In this document: one piece after another, positions 10,541 through 17,074 of the stretch
Layout of the letters: each line of letters opens with the position of its first letter
Position numbering within the stretch: position 1 is the stretch's first letter
DNA from: Candidatus Gastranaerophilales bacterium
GTDB lineage: Bacteria > Cyanobacteriota > Vampirovibrionia > Gastranaerophilales > Gastranaerophilaceae
DNA length: 36,968 nucleotides
Assembly (NCBI GenBank): GCA_944326515.1
Contig: CALVEI010000015.1
Coordinates: 1 to 36,968 of the forward strand
Direction: 5' to 3'
Position numbers and translations under genes: made by a program
Notes under the pieces: model-generated
What the model saw: only the letters and a program-made list of their open reading frames with translations
Database searches by the model: none
Told to the model about the DNA's origin: nothing

Positions 10541-11200
10541 ATGACTAATTTTAAAAATGGTGTAGGGCAAAATATTAAGTTATTAAGAAAAATCAGAGGC
10601 ATTACTCAAGAAGATTTGTCAGGTATTATAGGACTCCACCCTCGTCAACTTTCTAAGATTGAAACTGGTGATCACTTCCCTTCTTGTAGAACTTTGGAGA
10701 AAATCTGCATTGTGTTAAATATTCAACCAAGCCAGTTGTTTGAGTTTGAATTTTTGACAGAAGAAAACGAAGGTGCAATGACAGGCACTGACGGCGCTAC
10801 AAATTTTCAGGTGTCTAAAACAAAAAAAGACAACGTCTATCAACTTTTTGATAACCAAGAGTCTAAAACCAAAACTTGCACGGACGAATCTATGGCAAAT
10901 ATGGCAAAAACCTTAAATAAGCCTTTGTTTGTGGAATATTTTGATGAGAAAAAATCTTCAAAAATTGTTGTATTCTACCCTGACGGAAAAGAAAAAATTA
11001 TTAAAAATTCTGCAGATGTCGATGCACAGCGTAATTTGAATTGCATGGTTAAAGAATTTAAAAAAATAGCAAAAGATAATTCAGCTTCAGACTTTATAAA
11101 ACTTTCTATGGAAGCGTTGAAAAAAGACGATGCTCTTGAAAAGTTGAGCAACCTGATAGAAGGTATGAAACTAGCAAGAGGCCTGTCTAAAGACAGGTAA
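10541..11200 (+). CDS. XRE-family regulator with unique C-terminal extension
   Basis: Residues 5-68 form a canonical XRE HTH (GVGQNIKLLRKIRGITQEDLSGIIGLHPRQLSKIETG, then TLEKICIVLNIQPSQLF). A polar linker follows, then a C-terminal ~100-residue domain (KPLFVEYFDEKKSSKIVVFYPDGKEKII, then helical VKEFKKIAKDNSASDFIKLSMEALKKDDALEKLSNLIEGM). I do not recognise it; it could be an oligomerisation or sensing part. ATG 10541 has AAAGGAA upstream. Two dyads lie in its long upstream gap, suggesting autoregulation. Convergent with mutS, which ends 7 bp away. Target genes are not evident. Confidence 0.85.
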   Translation: MTNFKNGVGQNIKLLRKIRGITQEDLSGIIGLHPRQLSKIETGDHFPSCRTLEKICIVLNIQPSQLFEFEFLTEENEGAMTGTDGATNFQVSKTKKDNVYQLFDNQESKTKTCTDESMANMAKTLNKPLFVEYFDEKKSSKIVVFYPDGKEKIIKNSADVDAQRNLNCMVKEFKKIAKDNSASDFIKLSMEALKKDDALEKLSNLIEGMKLARGLSKDR

Positions 11201-11214
11201 GAGTTATTACTCTT
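11199..11214. terminator. Possible bidirectional terminator between XRE gene and mutS
   Basis: AAGAGT-TATT-ACTCTT spans both stop codons. A second hairpin CCTGTC-TAAA-GACAGG (11182-11197) lies in the end of the XRE gene. T-runs are weak on both sides, so efficiency is uncertain. Confidence 0.4.
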
Positions 11215-13801
11215 CTTTATTAAAGATTAAAGACAATTGAGGTACTTCAGGCGCAGGAATCTTGTTCTTGCGCTTGTTTGCTGATAAGTCTTTAGAATAA
11301 TCAAGCTGCATTTTTGTCATCATATCTTCTGCTGTTTTTATTACGGATTGAGGAAGTCCAGCCATTTTTGCTACCTGAATACCGTAACTTTTGCTGGCAG
11401 AGCCTTCTATAACTTTTCTCAAGAAGATAATTTCGCCATTATCTTCTGATATTGTGACTCTGTAGTTTTTAATTTGCGGAAACATCGAACTCATAACGTT
11501 AAGCTCGTGATAATGAGTAGCAAATATTGTTCTTGCTTTGATTTTAGTTGCGATATACTCTGCAACGCTCCACGCAATAGCTACACCGTCATAGGTGCTT
11601 GTGCCTCTTCCTATTTCATCAAGAAGAATTAAACTCTTGTCTGTGGCAGAGTTGAGGATAAAGGCTGTTTCATTCATCTCAACCATAAATGTTGATTGTC
11701 CGAGCGACAAGTCATCAACCGCACCTACTCTGGTAAATATTTTATCAACAATACCTATTTTTGCTGCGTCACAGGGAACAAAGCTTCCTATTTGCGCAAG
11801 TATTACAATAAGAGCGTTTTGACGCATGTATGTTGACTTACCAGCCATGTTAGGCCCTGTAAGTATCATAAATTGCGTGTCTTGTGCAGATTGATTATCA
11901 GCAATAAGTTTCAGGTCATTAGACACATATTTGCCCATTGGAAGAATTTTTTCCAATACGGGGTGTCTGCCCTCTTTTATATAGAGCTCGTTTGAGTCCG
12001 TAACAACAGGGCGAATGTATTTGTTTTCTATTGCACAAACAGCAAATGATACCAAAACATCTAAATCTGCGAGAGATTCTGCAACTTCTCTTATTGAATC
12101 AACAAATTCTTTTGAATACTCTCTCATGTCAGAAAAGATTTTTGACTCTAATTCAAGAGATTTTGACTGCGCAGAAAGCACGTCTGATTCGTGTTTTTTA
12201 AGTTCTTCAGTGATGAACCTTTCTCCGTTAGTGAGAGTTTGTCTTCTTATGTAATGATCAGGAACCATGCTTAAATTGGAATTAGAGACTTCTATAAAAT
12301 AACCAAATGTTTTAGAAAAACCTACTTTTAAGAATTTTATTCCTGTTTCTTCTTTTTGTTTGTTTTCAAAATCAATAAGCCAGTTTTTTCCGCCGGTAAG
12401 TAGTTCTCTGTAATAATCAAGATCGCCAGATACACCTTCTTTGATAACATTTCCGTCTTTTAGAGTTATCGGTGCGTCTTCTGATATAGTTTTTTCGATT
12501 ATATCTGCAAATTCTGAAAGATTTTTTCTTTCTTCCGTTAGTTTAGAAAGTAAATTGGAGTTGAAATTTTTTAATACTTCACTAAAAAGCGGCAATAATT
12601 TTATAGTATCTTTAAGAGCAATAAAATCTCTCGGATTAGCGGTATTGTTGCTTATTCTTGTTGAAAGACGCTGTATGTCATAGACTTTTTCTAACAAGCC
12701 GATAAGTTGGATTCTGGAAGATGTATTTTTGATTAATTCGTCTACAGCATCTTGGCGTTGTGTAATTTTTTCGATATTTTTTAGCGGTTGATGAATCCAT
12801 TTTTTTAACTGTCTTGAACCCATGTTTGTTTTTGTATTATCTATCGCCCAAAGCAAACTTCCGTATTTTGCTTTGTCTCTTGATGTTTCTGTTAATTCAA
12901 GATTTCTTCTTGTGTTAGCATCTATAGACACAAACTGGTTGAGACTGTATGTTGTAATTTTTTCAAACTTAGGAAAATTTTCTTTTTGAGTTTTAAAAAG
13001 GTATTCAAAAATAGCACCTGCAGCACAAAAACCTGCTTTAAATTGAGAAAAGCCAAAGTTTTCTGCTGATTCTACTTTAAAAATTTCTTTAATATTGTTT
13101 TGCGCTCTGTCCTCGTCAAAAGCTGCGTAGCTCATTTTGGAGCAGTTATAGTTGTTTGTGATTTCTTCAGGTAGGTCAATTTGTTCGTTGCCGACAAATT
13201 GGAAAGGCAAAACTTTTTGCGAAATTTTGGGCACAACAACTTCTGTAGGTTTTATTCTGGAAAGTTCACTCAAAAGCTGTTCAAAATCTGTTTGAGTAAC
13301 TTTAAATTCGCCTGTAGAAATGTCAGTGTAAGCCAAGCCGTAAAGATCTGTCTTTTTATCTTTTATAACAGAAGCAAGATAGTTGTTTACGTTTGATTTT
13401 AAAAGAGTTGTTTCTGTCAGAGTTCCTGCTGTGATTGTTTTTACAATATCTCTTTTTACCAATCCCTTAGCTGTAGCAGGGTCTTCAAGCTGTTCACAAA
13501 TTGCTATTTTATGACCTTTTTCAAGCAATTTGGGAAGGTAATTTTCAACAGCTTTAGCAGGGATTCCTGCCATAGGAATACGACCTAAAGGCCCACCTTC
13601 TCTGCTTGTTAAAGTTATTTCCAAATCCTTTGAAAGAGTGAGAGCATCTTCAAAAAAAGTTTCGTAAAAATCACCCATGCGATAAAGTAGCAAAACATCC
13701 ATGTTGTTTTTTTTGATTTCCAAAAACTGTTTTAACATGGGGGTTGCTTCGTTTATATCAACATCCATGCTGTTTATAAAATTGGTTTCTGATTTAGACA
13801 T
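11207..13801 (-). CDS. mutS: DNA mismatch repair protein MutS
   Basis: An 864-residue MutS1, which recognises mismatches and small loops and recruits MutL. The mismatch-contacting Phe-x-Glu lies in MGDFYETFFEDA (F45, E47). The connector, lever and clamp regions are intact. The ATPase carries Walker A TGPNMAGKST at about residues 648-657, Walker B LILLDEIGRGTSTYDG and FATHYHEL. The C-terminus ends in a short basic tail (ANKRKNKIPAPEVPQLSLIF) resembling the usual beta-clamp or tetramer tail. ATG 13801 follows GAGGAGA. There is no mutL in the window. The gene appears intact. Confidence 0.98.
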   Translation of the reverse strand: MSKSETNFINSMDVDINEATPMLKQFLEIKKNNMDVLLLYRMGDFYETFFEDALTLSKDLEITLTSREGGPLGRIPMAGIPAKAVENYLPKLLEKGHKIAICEQLEDPATAKGLVKRDIVKTITAGTLTETTLLKSNVNNYLASVIKDKKTDLYGLAYTDISTGEFKVTQTDFEQLLSELSRIKPTEVVVPKISQKVLPFQFVGNEQIDLPEEITNNYNCSKMSYAAFDEDRAQNNIKEIFKVESAENFGFSQFKAGFCAAGAIFEYLFKTQKENFPKFEKITTYSLNQFVSIDANTRRNLELTETSRDKAKYGSLLWAIDNTKTNMGSRQLKKWIHQPLKNIEKITQRQDAVDELIKNTSSRIQLIGLLEKVYDIQRLSTRISNNTANPRDFIALKDTIKLLPLFSEVLKNFNSNLLSKLTEERKNLSEFADIIEKTISEDAPITLKDGNVIKEGVSGDLDYYRELLTGGKNWLIDFENKQKEETGIKFLKVGFSKTFGYFIEVSNSNLSMVPDHYIRRQTLTNGERFITEELKKHESDVLSAQSKSLELESKIFSDMREYSKEFVDSIREVAESLADLDVLVSFAVCAIENKYIRPVVTDSNELYIKEGRHPVLEKILPMGKYVSNDLKLIADNQSAQDTQFMILTGPNMAGKSTYMRQNALIVILAQIGSFVPCDAAKIGIVDKIFTRVGAVDDLSLGQSTFMVEMNETAFILNSATDKSLILLDEIGRGTSTYDGVAIAWSVAEYIATKIKARTIFATHYHELNVMSSMFPQIKNYRVTISEDNGEIIFLRKVIEGSASKSYGIQVAKMAGLPQSVIKTAEDMMTKMQLDYSKDLSANKRKNKIPAPEVPQLSLIFNKEE

Positions 13802-15408: not shown

Positions 15409-16557
15409 ATGAAAGATAAAAGTTTTTTAATGATTCCAGGCCCTACACCTGTACCGGAAAGTGTTTTATTTGCAATGGCAAAACACCCTATAGGACATAG
15501 AAGCACAGAATTTGCTGCAATTTTGGAAGAAACTTATGCTGATTTAAAATGGTTGTTCCAAACACAAAACGATGTGTTTATTTATACTTCAAGCGGCACA
15601 GGCGCAATGGAAGGGGCTTTGTCTAACCTTGTAAATGAAGGTGATAAGGTACTTTCTCTTGTTATAGGTAATTTTGGAAACCGTTGGGCAAAAATTGCCG
15701 CTAAACTTGGCGCTGATGTTGAAAAAATTGAAGTAGAAGCAGGACAAGCAATTGACCCGCAAGTGCTTAAAGCAAAATTGGACGCTGACGTAAACAAAGA
15801 AATTAAAATTGTTACCCTAACTCATAATGAAACTGCAACAGGTGTAACAAACCCGTTAAAAGAGCTTGTTGCATTGATAAAAGAACACGGTGCAGTATCT
15901 GTAGTTGACGGTGTAACATCTATCGGTGCAATTGATTGCAAAATGGATGAATGGGGCATTGATGTACTTGTTTCTGGTTCACAAAAAGGCTTTATGATTC
16001 CTCCGGGATTGGCATTTTTAGCAGCAAGTGAAAAAGCTTTTAAAATGCACGAACAATGCAAACACCCTTCATTCTACTTTGATTGGACTGCATACAGAAA
16101 ATCAGTAAGAGCTAATTCTACTCCATACACTCCTGCTGTTAACCTGATTGTTGCATTGAATGAAGCGTTAAAAATGATGAAAAAAGACGGTTTAGAAAAT
16201 ATAATCAACCGCCATGCTAAACACGCAAAAGCTTTGCGTGCAGCCATTAAGGCAATCGGTTTAAAACCTATGGTAGCTGATGATGCAATTGCTTCTAACG
16301 CTATTACATCAATCTATCCGCCTGAAGGTGTTACTGTACCTGATATCAGAAGCACAATGAAAAAAGATTTTGATATTGTTGTAGCTAACGGTCAGAATGA
16401 ACTTAAAGACAAAATCTTTAGAATGGGTACATTGGGCTTTGTTTGTGACAGAGATGTGTTAGCTGCTGTAGCTGCTTTAGAAGCAAGCCTTTATAAACTT
16501 GGTCATAAGTTTGAGCTTGGTTCAGGCGTTAAAGCTGCAATTGAAAATCTTGTATAA
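15409..16557 (+). CDS. Class V aminotransferase (alanine-glyoxylate/serine-pyruvate type)
   Basis: A 382-residue PLP enzyme of the class V, subgroup IV fold. The start MIPGPTPVPESVLFAMAKHPIGHRS is diagnostic, followed by TSSGTGAMEGALSNL (PLP phosphate site), VSVVDGVTSIGAIDCKMDEWGIDVLVSGSQKG with the Schiff-base lysine at K193, and the C-terminal RMGTLGF. Family members include serine-glyoxylate and alanine-glyoxylate aminotransferases and the cyanobacterial protein once named the small subunit of soluble hydrogenase. The exact substrates cannot be read from sequence. ATG 15409 follows AAGGAGA; the in-frame ATG-type start at 15379 does not. A structured region follows 3 bp after the stop. Confidence 0.9.
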   Translation: MKDKSFLMIPGPTPVPESVLFAMAKHPIGHRSTEFAAILEETYADLKWLFQTQNDVFIYTSSGTGAMEGALSNLVNEGDKVLSLVIGNFGNRWAKIAAKLGADVEKIEVEAGQAIDPQVLKAKLDADVNKEIKIVTLTHNETATGVTNPLKELVALIKEHGAVSVVDGVTSIGAIDCKMDEWGIDVLVSGSQKGFMIPPGLAFLAASEKAFKMHEQCKHPSFYFDWTAYRKSVRANSTPYTPAVNLIVALNEALKMMKKDGLENIINRHAKHAKALRAAIKAIGLKPMVADDAIASNAITSIYPPEGVTVPDIRSTMKKDFDIVVANGQNELKDKIFRMGTLGFVCDRDVLAAVAALEASLYKLGHKFELGSGVKAAIENLV

Positions 16558-16560
16558 AAA

Positions 16561-16755
16561 GATGTCCGAGAAAAATTCGTGATAAGGAGCAAAGCGACGT
16601 GAACGAATTTTTGGACAAAGCGAACAGCAGAGCTGTGGCGATGCTAGTGAGCCTGTCTCCGAAACTTAACGAAGTTAAGTGTAGGTGAGAGTCACCTTGA
16701 AAAGGTGAGTAGTGGCGGCTCGAATGTTCGAGGCGACAACTGCGACACTAGATTA
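16561..16755 (+). ncRNA. Candidate structured non-coding RNA or 3'-UTR element
   Basis: This is a GC-richer stretch with no reading frame and many stems. Stem A is GTCC (16564) plus AAAAATTCGT (16571-16580) pairing with ACGAATTTTT (16603-16612) plus GGAC (16613-16616). Stem B is ACAGC-AGA-GCTGT (16624-16636). Stem C is ACTTAAC-GAA-GTTAAGT (16664-16680). Stem D is GGTGA-GAG-TCACC (16684-16696), which competes with stem E, TCACCTT-GAA-AAGGTGA (16692-16708). Stem F is CTCGAA/TTCGAG (16719-16732). The long-range pair CTAGTG (16644-16649) with CACTAG (16746-16751) closes the 3' part. A strong terminator follows. I match it to no known RNA class. Strand is set by the terminator and upstream gene, not proven. 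Confidence 0.5.
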
Positions 16756-16765
16756 AATTATTAAT

Positions 16766-16794
16766 AAAAAAGGAGCGAAAATCGCTCCTTTTTT
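16766..16794. terminator. Strong bidirectional terminator
   Basis: A 13-bp perfect stem AAAAAAGGAGCGA / TCGCTCCTTTTTT with AAA loop. It serves the aminotransferase/structured RNA from the left and the 92-residue gene from the right. Confidence 0.85.
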
Positions 16795-16795
16795 A

Positions 16796-17074
16796 TTAAC
16801 CGATATTCCTTTTTGGAAAAATACTTGTATTTTTAAATTCTTCGTGTTTCTCAGCCTTTTGTTTGTCTTCTAATTTTTGGATTTCTGCTTCTAATTTAGC
16901 AATATCTTTTAACAGTTCTGCTTTTGCCTCGGGCGGACAATTTGGATGTGATAAAATACGTTTTTTTGCTGCAATTACATTGTTTTTTTCCGGAATTGTA
17001 TTTGTTGTTTCAGGAATACCTCTGTTTACTGACTCTGCAAATTTTTGAAACTCCGAACCGTTTACTTGTGCCAT
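16796..17074 (-). CDS. Small coiled-coil hypothetical protein, 92 residues
   Basis: Not recognised. The second half is a charged coiled coil (CPPEAKAELLKDIAKLEAEIQKLEDKQKAEKHEEF). The first half is polar (MAQVNGSEFQKFAESVNRGIPETTN). There is one Cys and no membrane segment. ATG 17074 has an ideal AGGAGG. The downstream terminator begins right after the stop codon. The strong ribosome site and single-gene unit suggest good expression. Confidence 0.75.
   Translation of the reverse strand: MAQVNGSEFQKFAESVNRGIPETTNTIPEKNNVIAAKKRILSHPNCPPEAKAELLKDIAKLEAEIQKLEDKQKAEKHEEFKNTSIFPKRNIG

Follow-up and report, generated by a model that had tools for sequence, protein, structure and literature searches.

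A probable non-autonomous, mosaic mobile element with a conserved, strand-specific fold in Gastranaerophilales genomes

Behind a class-V aminotransferase gene of a Candidatus Gastranaerophilales bacterium lies a short stretch of folded DNA, and the question raised by this locus is whether the stretch belongs to the gene or came from elsewhere. The DNA analyzed here, referred to as the window, comprises positions 1 to 36,968 of contig CALVEI010000015.1 (36,968 nucleotides; assembly GCA_944326515.1). Positions 16561-16755 are non-coding and strongly folded, with a folding energy of -68.5 kcal/mol compared with -48.6 +/- 4.4 kcal/mol for shuffled sequences (z = -4.5, 0 of 200 shuffles). An earlier note, based on the letters alone, had described a candidate structured RNA at this position and suggested a small RNA, a 3'-UTR regulator or a switch. 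Its stems are all present, at identical positions or displaced by 1-2 bases, including the composite stem of GTCC plus AAAAATTCGT with ACGAATTTTT plus GGAC (16564-16616), the closure of CTAGTG (16644-16649) with CACTAG (16746-16751), and two hairpins that have TCACC in common. We also agree that the stretch matches no known class, as a search of Rfam 15 returned no family above the gathering score in it. At E<=10 without thresholds, only chance matches driven by the terminator appeared, essentially all of them lying over the terminator, and copies from other genera and from a phage likewise had no match above the gathering threshold.

A search of the bacterium's own genome (G000) with this folded stretch returned dozens more matches. 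Nineteen short copies served to build a covariance model, which gave 35 matches in this genome, corresponding to about 30 distinct loci. Across 146 sampled Gastranaerophilales genomes, model matches occurred in 24, all but one of which fell within one family (f1), where six genera were represented. Related genomes carried tens of copies each, with element sizes of 100-310 bases; one of them (G019) had 29 copies in 385 kb of chosen contigs, with no gene inside the copies. In a species-level genome collection, the named genomes among the matches listed were all Candidatus Gastranaerophilales MAGs, save apparently mislabelled bins. Weak early matches in other families (e.g., L029, L031, L032 and L034-L037) were set aside as matches to the query's terminator or other chance matches. 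The sole match outside f1 (L150 in G049, family f7; E 1.4e-4) was short and divergent, with a plain P1 hairpin that has no GATAAG/GTGA loop.

When the copies were aligned side by side, their ends were sharp, with TGTYCGAGAAAAATTYG on the left and GACACTAGATTA on the right, and could be written as a constant TGTYCGAG ... CTAGATTA followed by a 3-nt tail. The earlier note had placed the unit at 16561-16755 and had it end at the terminator; it is indeed structured, but the family consensus and an empty site in the sister genome G006 put its true limits at 16563-16758. The features of the locus are as follows.

15412-16557, plus strand: host gene, class-V aminotransferase (PF00266, E 9.9e-40), with its stop codon 5 bases before the element
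16559-16562, plus strand: target motif A-N-N-N (AAGA), immediately left of the insertion and also present in the empty site
16563-16758, plus strand: complete mobile element copy of 196 nt, from TGTCCGAG to CTAGATTA plus the tail AAT, delimited by the consensus ends of ~100 copies and the G006 empty site
16563-16615, plus strand: 5' module, with helix P1 (16571-16580 / 16603-16612) and the conserved GATAAG...GTGA internal loop
16616-16688, plus strand: optional module B, 73 nt, missing in short copies; its CTAGTG at 16644-16649 pairs with CACTAG at 16746-16751
16689-16758, plus strand: 3' module, with P3 (16693-16698 / 16702-16707) and P4 (16709-16713 / 16739-16743); covariance-model match of 69 bits
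16756-16758, plus strand: variable 3-nt tail AAT, element-borne at this locus and missing from the empty site
16760-16800, no strand assigned: bidirectional intrinsic terminator of the host gene, outside the element, kept at the element-free G006 locus and identified in a minus-strand terminator scan

The window copy carries module B and is thus of the long form; its 3' module has a variable distal hairpin on P4, a conserved GAAAAGGTGAG and the GACACTAGATTA end. The copies fell into three size forms, a short one of about 112-125 nt, a medium one of about 150-180 nt and a long one that reaches 311 nt, all consisting of one core with extra hairpin modules. The longest copy (L020, positions 1501-1811, in G011) contains a long G+C-rich nested structure within the P4 hairpin. 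The lpd copy occupies the same site in both sister genomes but is 165 nt long in G000 and only 123 nt in G006, indicating that loop modules were gained or lost after insertion; the element is a mosaic that grows through its loops. Module B is also found by itself, in tandem arrays of 73-nt units, at G000:C95 (positions 1-319) and G006:C2 (about 219.8-220.2 kb; L071, 3800-4200). Both arrays start right after a terminator-like hairpin, and the one in G006 terminates in a degenerate element 3' end. In genus g9, four copies (L142, L144, L146 and L147) have a common 5' half (TGTCCGAG, P1 with GATAAGGAACGTGAG, and GAGTGGCG) and a quite different 3' half (AGACAGCGCAGCC...GGCGGAGAACTGCTTTA), representing either a sister family or a swap of the 3' module.

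To ask whether these copies had moved, we searched the joined flanks of 21 G000 insertions against 23 genomes of the genus. The sister genome G006 had an empty site at about nine of the 21. About seven of these were precise, namely the window locus together with L059, L060, L004, L049, L043 and L005, while small indels or a poly-A run complicate the reading of two further tested sites, L045 and L062. Base by base, filled sites consist of the left flank, TGTYCGAG...CTAGATTA, 3 nt and the right flank, whereas empty sites consist of the left flank joined to the right flank. At the window locus, the empty site in G006 (L114) has TATAAAAAGA directly followed by TACCAATAAAAAAGG, and the window has TATAAAAAGA, the element and then TATTAATAAAAAAGG. 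The repeat is therefore dispersed and recently mobile. One minus-strand copy of 238 nt with the left flank TTAACC (L038 and L070) is shared by G000 and G006 at the same locus, from which it follows that the family holds old as well as recent insertions.

The empty locus bears directly on what the stretch means for its neighbors. Because G006 keeps the terminator at 16760-16800 without an element, this terminator is the gene's own, and the window copy, lying between it and the stop codon, very probably belongs to the 3' UTR of the aminotransferase gene. The strong fold and the adjoining terminator would suit a stand-alone small RNA or a locus-specific switch. However, G006 is empty at the same position and there are about 30 sister copies elsewhere in the genome, which speaks against a small RNA of the aminotransferase gene and against a dedicated 3'-UTR regulator of it. 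We rejected a locus-specific role on these grounds, and its remaining probability is very small. For structured intergenic RNA candidates in Gastranaerophilales genomes, copy number should therefore be checked first.

On the left side of the insertions, position -4 is occupied by A in 94 of 105 cases, compared with 38% A in the flanks, so that the element inserts after A-N-N-N. The 3-nt tail equals the three bases left of the element in 22 of 105 copies, compared with 8.4 expected (0 of 20000 shuffles), and rare tails matched the left flank in 9 of 21 cases, compared with 1.2 expected. An ordinary target duplication was not found, as the left end was identical to the start of the right flank in 6 cases against 4.7 expected. 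We thus discarded a simple 3-bp duplication, for which this identity is at chance level; instead, the tail is partly target-like. Target and element end have a common A-NNN core, and the tail is sometimes derived from the target.

We further analyzed the conservation of the fold, which consists of a 5' hairpin (P1) with the GATAAG/GTGA internal loop, followed by a three-way junction of P2, P3 and P4, with optional hairpin modules. Across an alignment of 100 copies drawn from several genera, 94% of the cells in the four helices are paired, compared with 32-59% in slid controls. Compensatory double changes filled 281 cells of this alignment, compared with 83.7 in shuffles, where the copies were fitted to the covariance model and are related through transposition, so that the cells are not independent events. 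An unfitted alignment of 19 sequences was also 94% paired, with double changes in 11 pairs versus 6.0. The helices differ in what they contribute: P1 is paired in 99% of cells with double changes in 8 of 10 pairs, P4 has double changes in 4 of 5 pairs, P2 hardly varies and is backed mainly by pairing, not covariation, and P3 has one pair broken in about half of the copies. Covariation was one of the checks that the earlier note had proposed, and its reading of the stretch as structured is borne out, with the fold preserved on the gene-sense strand. Its proposed switch between mutually exclusive hairpins fared differently. Only 4 of 10 comparable copies have an intact alternative hairpin, and its competitor P3 is the conserved one, which adds to the case against a switch at this locus.

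The strand was assigned from mismatches. An A-C cell corresponds to a G-U wobble on the other strand, and among non-Watson-Crick cells G-U outnumbered A-C by 160 to 25 (113 to 7 in P3), from which we conclude that the plus (gene-sense) strand is the folding strand, be it RNA or single-stranded DNA, between which this test cannot separate. The structure is selected, and on one strand. Its conservation could also reflect a function for the host.

Such a function is the core of another reading, in which the repeat is a structured UTR module, for example a stability element, an RNase site or a riboswitch-like regulator, that was domesticated and spread by helping adjoining genes. The genomic contexts lend it some weight, in addition to the conserved sense-strand structure. 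Most copies are found in one of two settings, either upstream of a start codon at a distance of a few bases up to about 60, with many at 5-60 nt, or downstream of a stop codon and ahead of a terminator. Tandem contexts on whole-scanned contigs comprised 17 sense and 4 antisense copies. Copies also followed the local GC skew (34 of 48), and we do not attribute the sense bias to the replication strand alone, given that transcription and replication biases both exist and are inseparable in this sample. The target genes, however, are not related to one another and vary from one sister genome to the next, a close relative has empty sites at the window locus and at six or more other loci, and copies also occur antisense, within genes and in a phage. 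We therefore consider a host-beneficial module improbable. The phage copy, which is divergent, sits in a Mu-like phage contig (IMGVR_UViG_3300010163_003650; L364, about 11080-11250), where it is flanked by the tape-measure gene and the tail gene that follows. A phage of this kind is a plausible vehicle for the element; the annotated phages and plasmids that we searched had no element.

Six genuine copies were found inside genes (one in lpd, two in one DUF2142 gene, and L183, L191 and L202), and all six of these tolerated copies are in phase 0, have a length that is a multiple of 3 and are open. Among 45 copies of 123 nt, by comparison, that frame is open in only 16. The in-gene copies are therefore read as translated rather than spliced, and their frames bear the signature of translated inserts. 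The apparent in-ORF copies L155, L190 and L048 were excluded as 5'-UTR copies with spurious upstream frames. In the case of L055 (G000:C1:95768-95889), a murJ-like frame ends within the element, so that the copy supplies the stop codon and the last residues (LSDKNL). At L004 (G000:C78:6805-7040), an insertion soon after the start of a short gene adds stops, and the gene is uninterrupted in the sister genome (L116). This copy is not open and truncates its gene, which means that copies can break genes.

The lpd insertion had suggested to us a very small intron, self-splicing or otherwise excised as RNA, whose insertions would be silent through self-removal. Precise insertion without duplication, conserved ends and internal motifs, plus-strand structure and the sense bias are all features that an intron would have. 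However, splicing would not require a reading frame, which all six tolerated in-gene copies respect; the non-open insertion at L004 breaks its gene; most copies lie outside genes; and Rfam gave no match to a ribozyme model, be it group I, group II or another. The frame and phase test led us to abandon the intron, which we now regard as very improbable.

We also searched for an enzyme that could move the element. No transposase- or gene-carrying copy was seen among the copies examined. TnpB was absent from all 146 genomes, which removed the possibility that the element is the TnpB guide-RNA scaffold of an IS605 element, and RVT_1 reverse transcriptase was missing from five element-rich genomes, which led us to reject a reverse transcriptase partner. 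Y1 transposase genes were present in about 11 of the 24 element genomes, and no Y1_Tnp domain (PF01797, E<=1e-5) was found in the fragmented assemblies of G000 and G006, which carry recent copies. None of the Y1 loci had element ends as borders, and 16 of 18 had no confident element nearby; one of the others (L230) lies about 1.2 kb from an element and another (L231) is accompanied by a partial one. Y1, TnpB and RVT_1 genes thus do not track the element.

These results weigh on the possibility that the element is a single-strand 'peel-and-paste' passenger of a Y1 transposase of the IS200/IS605 or REP-associated type. In favor of such a passenger, insertion leaves no target duplication, the hairpins close to the two ends are strand-specific, a short motif on the left resembles the element's own last four bases, orientation agrees weakly with GC skew, and Y1 genes are present in nearly half of the element genomes. 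However, the two genomes that differ by recent insertions have no Y1 at the threshold used, element ends do not border the Y1 genes, and target-copying tails would be unexpected. The IS200/IS605 family uses a fixed target tetra- or pentanucleotide, whereas only one target base is fixed here. We consider a Y1 passenger possible but unlikely.

Taken together, the evidence makes us fairly confident that the repeat is a non-autonomous, mosaic mobile element of Gastranaerophilales, whose gene-sense strand folds into a conserved shape and whose copy in the window is a passenger of a 3' UTR. An enzyme acting in trans would recognize the folded single strand, as ssDNA or RNA, and joining may proceed through an exchange of strands within the short A-NNN core common to the target and the element end. 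Either outcome would be possible at the right junction, and such an exchange would account both for the lack of a regular duplication and for those tails that copy the target. Copies in UTRs, or in frame within genes, would then be tolerated, giving rise to structured UTRs or inserted peptides. What counts against a mobile element is that no mobilizing enzyme, terminal inverted repeats or regular target duplication were found. There is also a small chance that the element represents a new class in which the folded RNA or ssDNA is itself active. In that case, the plus-strand structure would guide or catalyze its own insertion at A-NNN through a short strand-exchange core, and the element would have no relative among known transposons, introns or retroelements.

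We found no description of this element in the open-licence literature, and the mobile repeat family is apparently undescribed before. In these non-photosynthetic relatives of Cyanobacteria from animal guts, the repeat would be dense enough to break genome assemblies, alter many UTRs and add peptides within conserved enzymes. Unlike classical transposons, it has neither inverted repeats nor a regular target duplication, so that the identity of the enzyme, or of an RNA-based route, becomes directly testable.

Comparison with known repeats places the element near several kinds. Like MITEs such as Correia, ERIC, RUP and Nezha, it is small and non-autonomous, occurs in many copies, has folded transcripts and lies in AT-rich targets. 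The defining features of MITEs are terminal inverted repeats and target-site duplications, whereas this element has no regular target-site duplication and no terminal inverted repeats, its ends being TGTYCGAG and CTAGATTA-NNN with only a subterminal UGUC/GACA complement. Unlike in most MITEs, covariation and strand specificity can be demonstrated, which means that the structure is selected. The element thus behaves as a MITE would but is not a standard one. With IS200/IS605 and REP/RAYT elements it has in common strand-specific subterminal hairpins, the lack of a target duplication and a motif on its left, but it differs from them in having no fixed tetranucleotide (only A at -4 is near-fixed), no Y1 or TnpB in its own genome, and tails that are partly copied from the target. 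The tails also recall the coupling sequences of Tn916/CTnDOT-type elements, which are a few bases between the ends that can be element-borne or target-derived; there, the coupling regions have more bases and belong to large elements with an integrase gene of their own, so the likeness is a lead only.

Pneumococcal BOX elements are folded, probably parasitic, non-autonomous repeats that have been linked to terminal inverted repeats resembling ISSpn2 (PMC3049150). In Streptococcus pneumoniae and S. suis, they resemble our element as short, dispersed mosaics in which an optional middle module, sometimes in tandem, is set between constant 5' and 3' modules; they fold strongly if transcribed, are mostly intergenic, contain some open frames and have no known autonomous partner (PMC3049150). 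The resemblance is one of analogous layout only (5' and 3' modules, the optional 73-nt B and the B arrays), as no Rfam match indicates a relation in sequence. Unlike BOX, the Gastranaerophilales element has ends that are not inverted repeats, inserts precisely after A-NNN, forms in-frame inserts in conserved genes and has demonstrated strand-specific covariation. Rickettsia palindromic elements are folded repeats of 100-165 nt found in intergenic regions and in frame within conserved protein genes (PMC2229807, PMC10969869), as are the open inserts in lpd, in DUF2142 (twice) and at L183, L191 and L202. They are palindromes with terminal inverted repeats from an unrelated phylum, in contrast to the directional ends, P1 hairpin, three-way junction and mosaic build of the Gastranaerophilales element. 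By analogy, its closest known counterparts would be pneumococcal BOX for the mosaic organization and the Rickettsia palindromic elements for in-frame insertion.
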